Assembly: GCF_030160015.1 (NCBI RefSeq)
Contig: NZ_BSNN01000004.1
Coordinates: forward strand, 248,001-312,000
Direction of reading: 5' to 3'
Origin: Amylibacter marinus
GTDB lineage: Bacteria > Pseudomonadota > Alphaproteobacteria > Rhodobacterales > Rhodobacteraceae
Length of the DNA: 64,000 nt
Made by a program: the position numbers and the translations under genes. The stretch's first letter is position 1. Each line of letters starts with the position of its first letter. Positions 53,209 to 57,208 of the stretch are shown here, one piece after another. The notes below the pieces were generated by a model that saw only the letters and a list, made by a program, of their open reading frames with translations, was not told where the DNA came from and did not search any database.

Positions 53209-54618
53209 CTAGGTTAGCGTGCGAACATCGGTCAATTTACCAGTGATCGCCGCCGCCGCGGCCATGGCTGGCGAGACCAAATGCGTACGGCCCTTATAAC
53301 CCTGACGCCCCTCAAAATTCCGATTAGAGGTCGAGGCACAGCGCTCATGCTCGGCCAGCTGATCTGGATTCATGGCCAAACACATAGAACAACCCGCCAT
53401 ACGCCATTCAAATCCAGCGTCTTTGAAAATGTCCGCTAGACCCTCTTCTTCTGCTTGGGCACGTACCAAACCAGATCCTGGCACAACCATTGCCCGCAGA
53501 CCGTCTTTGATTTTCTTACCCTTCAGGATTTCCGCGGCGGCGCGCAGATCTTCGATACGGCCATTGGTACAGGATCCGATAAATACCGTATCAATCGCGA
53601 TATCCGTTAGCTTTTGCCCGGGTGTTAGGCCCATATAATCCAGCGAACGCTGAGCGGCCGCAACCTTGCCACCCTCGAAATCATCTGCGCTTGGAACAGT
53701 AGCGGTAATTGGCAACACATCTTCAGGCGATGTGCCCCATGTGACCACTGGCTGAATATCCTCGCCCTTTAGGGTGACGACCAGATCAAATTCTGCACCC
53801 TCGTCGGTATACAGTGTTTTCCAGTTTTCAAGCGCCGCGTCCCAGTCGGCACCTTTGGGTGCATTTGGACGGCCCTTACAATATGCAAACGTCGTTTCAT
53901 CGGGTGCGATTAGCCCAGCACGCGCGCCACCCTCGATGGCCATGTTACAGACGGTCATGCGACCCTCCATAGACAGGTCGCGAATTGCTTCGCCGCAATA
54001 CTCGATCACATAGCCCGTACCGCCGGCAGTGCCGGTTTCCCCGATCACAGCCAATGTAATATCCTTGGCCGTAACACCTGGTTTCAACTTGCCGGTGATT
54101 TCCACCTTCATGTTTTTTGATTTCTTTTGGATCAGCGTTTGGGTTGCCAAAACATGTTCAACCTCTGATGTGCCAATACCATGGGCCAGCGCACCAAAGG
54201 CGCCGTGGGTGGCGGTGTGGCTATCGCCGCATACCACAGTCATGCCCGGCAATGTCCAGCCCTGCTCTGGGCCGACGATATGCACAATACCCTGACGCAC
54301 GTCAGACACAGGGTAATAGTGCACGCCGAATTCTTTGGCGTTGGTATCCAGCGCATTCACCTGAATGCGGCTTTCTTCGGTCATGGTGGCAGGATCTGCA
54401 CGATCCAGTGTGGTGGGCACGTTGTGATCAGGTACCGCGATTGTTTTATGGGGTGCGCGTACCTTGCGCCCCGCGATACGCAGTCCCTCAAAGGCCTGTG
54501 CGGATGTTACTTCGTGTACCAGATGGCGGTCGATGTATAGCAAACATGTGCCGTCTTCTGCTTCGTGGGCTACGTGGGCATCCCAAATTTTATCATAGAG
54601 TGTTTTTGGTGCTGACAT
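53209..54618 (-). CDS. leuC: 3-isopropylmalate dehydratase large subunit
   Basis: 469 aa aconitase-superfamily subunit. The 4Fe-4S cysteines lie in [12 protein letters not shown] and [42 protein letters not shown] and the terminal [20 protein letters not shown] are also present. With LeuD it isomerises 2-isopropylmalate. AGGAG precedes the ATG. A structured leader lies upstream. Confidence 0.97.
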
Positions 54619-54660
54619 GATGAACTCCTGTCGCTTGGTGTTTTACTGTGGCTACTGAGA

Positions 54661-54778
54661 ATTGGGCAGGGGCTATCTGGCACGCAACAGGGTTACGAGC
54701 TCTGCATGGAATCTCCATGGCAGCCGTGTTTTATCATCCAAATCAATAATACGAGTCATACTGCCCAATACCCTGTTG
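54661..54778 (-). promoter_or_regulatory. Candidate structured leader of leuC: interleaved inverted repeats
   Basis: Read leftward: arm A CAACAGGGT (54778-54770), arm B ATTGGGCAG (54769-54761), then A' ACCCTGTTG (54693-54685) and B' CTGCCCAAT (54669-54661). The order A-B-A'-B' cannot nest, so it would form either a pseudoknot or alternative pairings. A hairpin TGCCATGGA-GAT-TCCATGCA (54722-54703) sits between. No T-run follows B'. Confidence 0.45.
54673..54759 (-). CDS. Possible leader ORF upstream of leuC
   Basis: ATG at 54759 opens a 28-codon frame, MTRIIDLDDKTRLPWRFHAE then LVTLLRAR, ending at TAG 54673. Leu codons CTG TTG fall exactly in repeat arm A' and the stop lies just before arm B'. 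Five of 28 residues are Leu. The ribosome site is poor. It could be an attenuator peptide for the leu genes, or chance. Confidence 0.3.
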   Translation of the reverse strand: MTRIIDLDDKTRLPWRFHAELVTLLRAR

Positions 54779-54863
54779 TCGCACAATCTTCAAGCGCAGC
54801 TTGGATCAAGCCCTTGCAGGACTGGGCCACGCGGCCTAATCTGCCCCAAAGCAGGAGATACCC

Positions 54864-56237
54864 TTGGCAGACCCAGACAGCCCCACGTCGATCCAACCCT
54901 TAGAAGAGGCCGAGCGCACCCCGATCCCGCACCCAGCCGAAGGTGCCGATGCGGTGGTGGAACAGGCCGGCCTGTTGGCAGATATGGTCGCAGATTTCCT
55001 AACGCGGCTACAGCAACCTTGGACGCTCTATCAGATGGGCATCATTCTGGGGCTGATTTTTGCGGCCTATTGCCTAAAGGTTGTCTTTCGTCCGCGCATT
55101 CGCACCAGCCTTGCACAGGGGGGGCATTCCAAAACCACCCTGCGCTTTGCCTCTATCTTGGTGGCGCGGCTGGATCTGATTTTTTTCTCGGCGCTTGCAT
55201 GGTCCACTTATGCGATTATGCAATCCATAACATGGCCCTCACGTAGCTATTTTATCTATATCGTGGCCTCCATTGCGCTGGCATGGTTGGCGATTGCAAT
55301 TCTATCGCGGCTGATTTCCAATAACACAGTGCGGGTAATGATCCGCACCTTTGGCTGGGCCTATGCCGCCCTGCGCATCACCGGCCTATGGGAAAATACC
55401 AGCGCGCTACTAGAAAGTCTTGCGATCGAGACCGAGGGCTTTCGCCTATCGGTGCTCATGGTTTTGACGGCATTGTTCGCACTGGCCATTCTGTTTGTCA
55501 TGGCCAATTTCCTAACCAAATCCACCCATGCGCGTTTGAATGCCGCCAGCGATATTTCCCCATCGATCAAGGTATTGATGCAGAAAATCGCCCAGATCGG
55601 CTTTTATGGTGTGGCGCTGTTGATCGGGTTGAAAACCGTTGGGTTTGATCTGTCGAATTTTGCATTGCTTACGGGGGCCATAGGCCTTGGCCTTGGCTTT
55701 GGTTTGCAGAAAATTGTTTCAAATTTGGTCTCTGGGGTGATTATCCTGTTGGACAAATCGATCAAGCCAGGGGATGTGATATCGCTGGGCAATACCTTTG
55801 GATGGATCACATCATTGGGCGCACGTTATGCATCGATCACCACGCGTGATGGGCGCGAATACTTGGTGCCCAACGAGGATTTCATCACCAACCAAGTGGT
55901 CAACTGGACTCACTCTTCGGACTTTGTGCGCTTGGATATCTTGTTTGGGGTGTCCTACGACAGCGACCCACATTTCGTGAAACGCATCGCCTCCGAGGCG
56001 CCCAAATCCGTGGGCCGCGTGGTATCGACCCCCGCACCCGTGTGTCACATTATTAATTTCGGCGACAGCTCGATTGATTTCAAACTGCGGTTTTGGATCA
56101 AAGACCCGACCAGCGGCCTGACCAATATCCGTGGCAATGTTTATCTGGCCCTATGGGATGCACTGAAGGAAAATGATATCCAGATCCCCTACCCCCGCCG
56201 CGATGTGCATATCCACACCGAACTACCCGAGGATTAG
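54864..56237 (+). CDS. Mechanosensitive ion channel, MscS family (second copy)
   Basis: 457 aa. An acidic, Pro-rich N-terminus precedes about five membrane helices. The pore helix GAIGLGLGFGLQKIVSNLVSGVIILLD, then PGDVISLGNTFGWI and VPNEDFITNQVVNW, are MscS. The C-terminus ends NDIQIPYPRRDVHIH. The start is TTG 54864 with AGGAG seven bases upstream; no in-frame ATG is nearby. Same architecture as the gene at 13487. TTAG at the end is shared with the convergent asparaginase stop. Confidence 0.9.
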   Translation: MADPDSPTSIQPLEEAERTPIPHPAEGADAVVEQAGLLADMVADFLTRLQQPWTLYQMGIILGLIFAAYCLKVVFRPRIRTSLAQGGHSKTTLRFASILVARLDLIFFSALAWSTYAIMQSITWPSRSYFIYIVASIALAWLAIAILSRLISNNTVRVMIRTFGWAYAALRITGLWENTSALLESLAIETEGFRLSVLMVLTALFALAILFVMANFLTKSTHARLNAASDISPSIKVLMQKIAQIGFYGVALLIGLKTVGFDLSNFALLTGAIGLGLGFGLQKIVSNLVSGVIILLDKSIKPGDVISLGNTFGWITSLGARYASITTRDGREYLVPNEDFITNQVVNWTHSSDFVRLDILFGVSYDSDPHFVKRIASEAPKSVGRVVSTPAPVCHIINFGDSSIDFKLRFWIKDPTSGLTNIRGNVYLALWDALKENDIQIPYPRRDVHIHTELPED

Positions 56238-57208
56238 GCCAATAGTGCAGGGGCGGCACACACAACGCCTGTACGGATTTTGCGTCGGTTCAGCTGATCT
56301 ACATTCAGCCGCTTTTGAATCAGCGGGTGATCAAGCTCGGCCACCCCCATGCGTACCAGCAATGCGGCAATGGCGGCCTCGGCGCCGCGCATGGCCCCAT
56401 CATCTACCTTCAGCGCAATGCCGATACCCTGATCTAGCAGGATGGCCGTGAACACGCCCTCAGCGCCGGTTTTCACCACTGCGCGCCCCTCGCAGGCTTG
56501 CATCAGTTCAGAACAGGCCCGCCCCTCGCCCGCCACCAGTAACGGATGGCGCGCCATGGCATCTGCCAAAACCCGCCCATCGGCATCGCCACCAATGCGC
56601 GCCATGGCCCCAGCAAGCCCACCTAGGCTGGTGGCAAAATTCGGGGCGGAACAGCCATCAATCGCCCAGCCTGCCGATTTCTCATCGCAAAACTCTTCGA
56701 ATGCCTCCAGCGCCGCCTGTTGTACGGGGTGATCCATTTCCGTGTATTCCGCATCGCCCCCCATATGGGCATTCAACGTCAGGAACCCAGCATGTTTGCC
56801 CGAACAATTGTTATGGATTTGGCACGGCTTCTGGCCGGCCTTTACCAAGGCATTGGCGGTGGAAAAATCACTGGGGCGTTGGGGGCCACAACGTAAATCA
56901 TCGCGCCCCAGATCCAATGCGCCCAACCAATTGACTACCAGATCCGTATGCATCTGTGCCCCCTGATGCGACGAACACGCCAAGGCCAGCTGTTCCTGTG
57001 ACAGACGAAATTTCTGGGCCGCACCTGAGCGCATCAGCGGCATCGCCTGTAGAATTTTGCAAGAAGAGCGCGGTAGGATCACCTGATCTGGATTGCCCCA
57101 CGCACCCTTGATATCACCCTGTGCATCCACGATCACCGCATGCCCATTATGGGTGCATTCCAAAAAATCACCGCGCCATACCTGCGCCAGCTGTACCGAA
57201 TTTTCCAT
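56234..57208 (-). CDS. Type II L-asparaginase of the Rhizobium etli class (COG4448)
   Basis: 324 aa. AQVWRGDFLECTHNGHAVIVD, LPRSSCKILQAMPLM, ALACSSHQG, IHNNCSGKHAGFL and DGCSAPNFATSLGGLA are the signature blocks of this family, unrelated to the E. coli enzymes. It hydrolyses Asn to Asp and ammonia. No signal peptide. Divergent from ialB. Confidence 0.9.
   Translation of the reverse strand: MENSVQLAQVWRGDFLECTHNGHAVIVDAQGDIKGAWGNPDQVILPRSSCKILQAMPLMRSGAAQKFRLSQEQLALACSSHQGAQMHTDLVVNWLGALDLGRDDLRCGPQRPSDFSTANALVKAGQKPCQIHNNCSGKHAGFLTLNAHMGGDAEYTEMDHPVQQAALEAFEEFCDEKSAGWAIDGCSAPNFATSLGGLAGAMARIGGDADGRVLADAMARHPLLVAGEGRACSELMQACEGRAVVKTGAEGVFTAILLDQGIGIALKVDDGAMRGAEAAIAALLVRMGVAELDHPLIQKRLNVDQLNRRKIRTGVVCAAPALLA

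Follow-up and report, generated by a model that had tools for sequence, protein, structure and literature searches.

A conserved leader peptide upstream of leuC in Rhodobacterales and Rhizobiales, and its possible role in leucine sensing

In the alphaproteobacterium Amylibacter marinus, the leuC gene is preceded on its own strand by a leader that contains a 28-codon open reading frame (ORF). The locus lies within a 64,000 nucleotide (nt) stretch of contig NZ_BSNN01000004.1 (the whole stretch is hereafter the window), and the leader is flanked by leuC, of the aconitase family, and by a divergent gene for an MscS-like channel. An earlier note made from the sequence drew attention to two 9-base inverted repeats in the order A-B-A'-B' with a hairpin between them, to the small ORF running through these repeats, and to the Leu codons CTG TTG (codons 24 and 25) inside A'. 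All of these can be read on the minus strand, which is that of leuC, and both repeats are perfect 9-mers; the gap between the stop codon and B', however, is three bases rather than four (Table 1). The comparison with related genomes reported below leads to a different view of what matters at this locus: the repeats are a lineage-specific oddity overlying the promoter, and the conserved leader peptide is the real feature.

In the genus of the window, the ORF was found by protein search (E <= 1) in 30 of 33 genomes, and all 30 loci are on the same strand as leuC, 139-159 nt upstream (start to start). Family-wide, profile matches at E <= 0.1 occur in 342 of 395 genomes, a count that includes weak matches unchecked for an adjoining leuC. 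A pattern scan (DD[RK][ATS]RLPWR) of the genome collection gave 470 stretches encoding relatives, 80 of which were retained; where the genus is named, it is in most cases one of the Rhodobacteraceae, e.g. Roseovarius, Pseudooceanicola, Maritimibacter and Limimaricola, which we take to be members of this family. Altogether 146 loci were checked, with the core recognised by a regular expression in 141 and 129 left after identical ones were dropped. The ORF is directly followed by leuC in 128 of these 129 distinct Rhodobacteraceae loci, the exception (L046) being a contig end. Qingshengfaniella, of the Rhodobacterales, likewise carries the leader peptide. The five loci lacking the regular-expression core include family members with variant peptides ahead of leuC (L148, L149 and L151), and one locus (L150) belonging to a different family. 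In the leuC leaders of L149 and L151, LPWRFF is replaced by LRERFF or LRERFY, giving natural core variants, and an AFLPWRF variant also exists. When the entire leader was used as a DNA query, 6 of 101 genomes (among them that of the window) were matched, by way of the ORF; this poor yield arises because the peptide is conserved more than the DNA. The conservation of the ORF in relatives, put forward for checking in the earlier note, is thus borne out, the ORF being kept while the repeats are not.

The encoded peptides are about 28-50 amino acids long across loci, with a core consensus of about D[RHK]xRLPxRF. For codons 8, 9 and 12-17, tallied over 125 loci, the first, second and third codon positions show 27, 0 and 304 minority bases out of 1000 each; in the codon table every third-base choice occurs at Pro14 and six different codons occur at Arg16. 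As judged from this variation, the core is maintained at the peptide level, positions 1 and 2 being near-invariant and the third position free, and the synonymous-site freedom is independent of how the loci were found. No credible match to a curated Pfam or NCBIfam model was obtained for 25 leader peptides. The window's ORF lies on the leuC strand, directly upstream of leuC, and carries the core, features by which we assign it to this leuC leader peptide family. In some leaders (L018; L249, L255 and L262) the core is preceded by N-terminal extensions, so that the start-to-core spacing can vary freely, while the spacing from core to rare Leu codon (see below) is fixed.

A search begun from L150 and extended through its family and order brought the peptide to light in a second order. 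The 75 loci checked comprise 50 distinct ones with the core upstream of leuC, 23 duplicates, and two (L271, L272) that are without leuC and are probably chance matches. The name Rhizobiales (Hyphomicrobiales) used for this second order is based on the presence of the leader peptide in Sinorhizobium meliloti, Sinorhizobium sp. K101 and Shinella; the order of the remaining genomes is inferred. In S. meliloti Ak57 the leuC leader encodes a 38-amino acid homologue whose core reads QDHKRLPARF and whose rare Leu codon is CTA. The choice of profile matters for such counts, second-order genomes being matched in 21 of 150 cases with profile A4 and in 31 of 150 with profile A5. Class-wide profile searches beyond the two orders gave mostly chance matches, and no leader peptide was seen ahead of leuC in Methylobacterium bullatum or Indioceanicola profundi.

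When the 129 loci are aligned on the ATG of the leader ORF, the sequences are T-rich at -36/-35 and show A or T at -12/-11, and position -1 is a pyrimidine in 96% of them; no Shine-Dalgarno sequence before the leader ORF appears in this profile. The same two promoter peaks are found in the 50 second-order loci, in which starts were picked by a -10-like score, which leaves the -35 peak as the one independent of how starts were picked. The window has TTGAAG followed after a 17-nt spacer by TATTGG, an arrangement that places the putative transcript start at or next to the ATG, and the leader ORF is predicted to be leaderless in this species. The S. meliloti homologue was called leaderless on the basis of Ribo-seq and RNA-seq in the excerpted account (PMC10117765).

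The position of this promoter bears directly on the repeats. Arms A and B span -19 to -11 and -10 to -2 relative to the ATG and overlap the -10 region, and because the conserved promoter puts the predicted transcript start at the ATG of the ORF, both arms should be outside the RNA. When the 245-nt spacer was dinucleotide-shuffled 3000 times, an interleaved pair of perfect 9-mers never arose; among 1063 overlapping tiles of 245 nt cut from the window, 5 contain such a pair, and some of these are expected to include this same site, and the chance estimate is weakened by the post hoc choice of the feature. The leader fold is not unusually stable (z -1.06; 26 of 200 shuffles equally or more stable), and none of 4227 Rfam families matches at its gathering score, four listed matches being far below theirs. 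In the genus, A/A' and B/B' complementarity is retained in 0 of 29 relatives: the 20 nt that precede the ATG can pair with the leader downstream over stretches of at most 4-6 nt in these relatives, compared with 9 nt in the window. The earlier note proposed to look for compensating changes in the two arm pairs, and it is the complementarity itself that is missing: over 128 loci, the window's included, its mean longest length is 5.2 nt, compared with 5.1 nt in shuffled sequences. An RNA switch or pseudoknot built on the order A-B-A'-B', as originally suggested, is therefore abandoned here, the pairing being absent from all 29 relatives and arms A and B coming before the predicted transcript start.

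The second conserved property of the leader is the choice and position of a leucine codon. Among Rhodobacteraceae of other genera than the window's, 59 of the 245 Leu codons in the tail that follows the core are CTA, compared with 17 of 2879 in leuC. In the second order, Leu codons standing at Trp +14 or further on (offsets in this count starting from the codon after Trp) are CTT or CTA in 23 of 25 cases, compared with 86 of 1490 in leuC. When both groups are pooled, 88 of the 94 Leu codons at position +13 from the core Trp are CTA (57) or CTT (31), codons whose joint share in leuC of the two groups is 14% and 6%. By contrast, CTG and CTC predominate at Leu13 and wherever Leu is encoded at +7 or +10. 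The last CTA or CTT stands at Trp +13 in 83 of 98 Rhodobacteraceae loci outside the genus and at +13 to +15 in 31 of 50 Rhizobiales loci. Its distance to the stop codon varies, being 1-5 codons in most second-order loci, and with the distance to Trp constant, the fixed relation of the rare codon is to the core and not to the stop. In relatives, the conserved core residues thus stand at a fixed distance from a candidate stall codon, as a matter of sequence geometry. The leucine codons CTG TTG, whose retention the earlier note proposed to check, are not the conserved ones; it is a CTA/CTT codon at Trp +13 to +15 that keeps both its place and its rarity, and in the window's species AGA stands in its stead. 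The window's leader has Leu codons at 21, 24 and 25, and most relatives a single rare Leu codon; a rare Leu codon at +13 to +15, common in the family, is not used to define it, since the window's leader is without it. At the ORF end of several loci (among L237-L302), CGA often precedes the rare codon (CGA CTT), as if two slow codons had been selected together.

The spacer between the leader ORF and leuC is richer in C than in G at 97.7% of the Rhodobacteraceae loci (n=128) and at all 37 Rhizobiales loci, with a C-G value of 0.15 compared with 0.03 in control regions (n=27). The absence of a classical terminator noted earlier holds for the window, which has no strong intrinsic terminator ahead of leuC on the leuC strand; a single weak terminator-like site is listed, on the opposite strand. 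Intrinsic terminators are likewise at chance level in relatives (1 of 128 and 1 of 37 leaders, with 1 and 0 in shuffles), and the combination of terminator and competing antiterminator that would mark a leuL-type attenuator was not found ahead of leuC. Sequestration of the leuC Shine-Dalgarno sequence by the leader was considered and rejected, its unpaired probability in 122 leaders being 0.43 with the full leader and 0.47 without the ORF. A hairpin of at least 5 pairs with the ORF stop codon in its loop is seen at the 3' end of the ORF in 25 of 98 and 11 of 37 loci of the two orders, respectively (e.g. L112, L223 and L245), compared with about 4% of shuffles overall and 4.5% for the set of 98. 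As a universal element this hairpin was discarded, for it occurs in 0 of 30 loci of the window's genus, and both with and without the rare codon.

Table 1. Features of the leuC leader region in the window (positions counted from the first base of the 64,000 nt stretch).
Feature	Position	Strand	Basis or remark
Leader ORF	54673..54759	-	28 sense codons and TAG, MTRIIDLDDKTRLPWRFHAELVTLLRAR; ATG at 54759
Conserved core DDKTRLPWRF, codons 8-17	54709..54738	-	Codon table, codon-position variation, two-order alignment
Predicted -35 element TTGAAG	54788..54793	-	Positional profile of 129 loci; here 2 nt nearer the ATG
Predicted -10 element TATTGG, 17 nt past -35	54765..54770	-	Profile peak -13 to -11; here -11 to -9
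Start codon and predicted transcript start (leaderless)	54757..54759	-	Promoter profile; S. meliloti homologue (PMC10117765, excerpts)
Inverted-repeat arm A, CAACAGGGT	54778-54770	-	Not conserved
Inverted-repeat arm B, ATTGGGCAG	54769-54761	-	Abuts arm A; not conserved
CATGGA/TCCATG hairpin	54719-54705	-	Between arms B and A'
Inverted-repeat arm A', ACCCTGTTG	54693-54685	-	Includes Leu24 CTG and Leu25 TTG; pairing not conserved
Codon 28 AGA at Trp +13	54676..54678	-	CTA/CTT in 83/98 loci of other Rhodobacteraceae genera
Inverted-repeat arm B', CTGCCCAAT	54669-54661	-	Not conserved
ORF-leuC spacer	54619..54672	-	C-rich, G-poor in relatives; holds leuC Shine-Dalgarno AGGAG, 54625-54629
leuC, 3-isopropylmalate dehydratase large subunit	53209..54618	-	Pfam aconitase family, E 6e-180

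On the far side of the leader, the divergent MscS-like channel gene (window positions 54864-56237) is followed by an L-asparaginase II gene (56234-57208). The DNA upstream of the leader differs in relatives of the same genus, e.g. L002 and L004.

Taken together, these features suggest, with moderate confidence and from sequence comparison, a leuC leader peptide of Rhodobacterales and Rhizobiales in which stalling at a Leu codon, assisted by the core, gates leuC, probably via Rho. RNA polymerase would start at the leader ATG or within one or two nucleotides of it, and the ORF would be translated from a leaderless mRNA, in line with what has been reported of the S. meliloti homologue. With the ribosome close to the last codons, the core would lie 8-20 residues back in the exit tunnel with the rare CUA or CUU entering the A site. 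If charged transfer RNA (tRNA) for leucine were scarce, the ribosome would stall at this codon, the core helping, and the stalled ribosome would shield the C-rich, G-poor spacer and allow transcription to proceed into leuC. With ample leucine, the ribosome would terminate and leave the spacer exposed, and Rho could then stop transcription, this being the weakest step of the proposal. In the window's species, which has AGA at +13, stalling would need the nearby Leu codons 24-25, or would be weaker or lost. The idea of the earlier note that ribosome position exerts control may in this form be kept in part, as a translated leader ORF in which Leu codons probably matter, the choice between A/A' and B/B' structures being given up. 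It is tempting to go further and see here an unrecognised family of nascent-chain-assisted leucine sensors, in which a core held in the tunnel confers hypersensitivity to the charging of the tRNA-Leu isoacceptor for a rare codon placed 13-15 residues further on, and so gates Rho-dependent termination before leuC in two orders of Alphaproteobacteria, a generalisation that we offer as tentative.

Several observations weigh against core-assisted stalling as the general explanation. The window's own leader has AGA and not Leu at Trp +13, its genus has CTA or CTT there in 10 of 30 loci and another Leu codon in 11 of 30, and from +10 onwards CTA and CTT are missing altogether in 12 of 98 and 15 of 50 relatives. 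Third-base A/T is mildly raised in other tail codons as well (102/550 vs 2977/22211, and 55/260 vs 611/8026), and the sequences are related, so that Fisher p-values on codon choice overstate independence. The invariance of core residues is partly built in by the way the loci were found (collection pattern and regular expression), and the control set for spacer composition is small, at 27 regions. The leuC upstream regions of 40 other alphaproteobacterial genomes, one from each, contain the peptide in 0 of 40 cases.

Other explanations share part of the same evidence. A ten-residue core conserved residue by residue over two orders, a core-to-codon distance of 13-15 that is near the 12 residues from W12 of TnaC to the last of its 24 (excerpts of PMC8429421), and a terminator-free C-rich spacer as in Rho-coupled tnaC would all suit a metabolite-sensing arrest peptide, the core binding leucine or a pathway intermediate in the tunnel and stalling the ribosome, much as TnaC does in response to tryptophan, and the rare Leu codon merely slowing the ribosome in the proper place. 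The placed codon is, however, specifically Leu, and in most relatives specifically the rare CTA or CTT, which points to tRNA charging and makes such an arrest peptide rather unlikely in our view. Somewhat less probable again is a stable micropeptide acting in trans on LeuC, on ribosomes or on RNA, as claimed for S. meliloti peTrpL, with its site in the leader serving co-expression. Such a role would accord with conservation at the peptide level and with the detection of tagged SEP18, the S. meliloti peptide discussed below, at least partly in a ribosome/membrane pellet (excerpts of PMC10117765), but the fixed place and short spacing before leuC in all leuC-bearing loci speak against it, and the variable tail and the codon-level signal at +13 favour a role in cis.

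The repeats themselves give rise to two further readings, both of them much weaker candidates than the preceding ones. Arms A and B could form a species-specific protein-binding DNA site controlling leuC or the divergent mscS-like gene, since they overlap the predicted -10 element and exceed the chance length in the leuC spacer; we regard this as improbable, as such complementarity is missing from 29 of 29 genus relatives and no known operator was recognised. A classical leucine attenuator, or an RNA structure alternating between A/A' and B/B', is the least probable of all: the interleaved 9-mers are real, and no shuffle reproduced them, yet their pairing is unconserved, A and B precede the predicted transcript start, terminators are no more frequent than by chance and the leuC Shine-Dalgarno sequence is not consistently sequestered. 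Core-assisted stalling at the rare Leu codon remains the explanation that we prefer.

Should it hold, codon sensing as in leuL and tunnel sensing as in TnaC would be united in one device of 28-50 amino acids, and two ways in which a leader ribosome senses an amino acid would be separated and shown in combination. In the open-licence papers searched, no account of a leuC leader peptide other than SEP18 was found, and no description of leucine-responsive leuC control in Alphaproteobacteria. SEP18 is the product of a short ORF (sORF) that precedes leuC in S. meliloti, detected by Ribo-seq and confirmed on Western blots, and a re-annotated, leaderless sORF of 38 amino acids is reported in the same organism (PMC10117765, excerpts). 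The excerpted text mentions a likeness to ribosomal proteins (L7/12) and proposes no regulatory role or family for SEP18. Position, leaderless start and length of 38 amino acids agree with those of the leuC leader homologue, and we equate the Ak57 peptide with SEP18, a match made by place and length alone. To that excerpted account the present analysis adds the core, its spread over two orders and the Leu codon. A short peptide translated in S. meliloti, without assigned function, now has a known phylogenetic distribution, a precisely defined core and a prediction at the level of a single codon.

Among characterised leaders, leuL of Salmonella and E. coli is similar in being a short translated leader before a leucine gene with CUA as control codon; in the Salmonella leu leader, replacement of CUA by CUG lowers sensitivity (Carter et al., as cited in the part of PMC1183508 available). 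Unlike leuL, the leuC leader has no run of Leu codons and no terminator, and it has a conserved core, is predicted to be leaderless and stands before leuC. TnaC combines core-dependent stalling with a Rho site just downstream (PMC8429421, excerpts). It differs in that the stall codon proposed here is a Leu codon rather than a stop codon and the gene concerned is biosynthetic, and it is set beside the leuC leader by description, not by sequence. The trpL/peTrpL leader peptide of S. meliloti is again similar, since it is leaderless, comes from an alphaproteobacterium and belongs to a gene for amino acid biosynthesis (PMC10117765, excerpts); unlike the leuC leader it is a tryptophan attenuator of 14 amino acids, and this comparison too is one of description and not of sequence.
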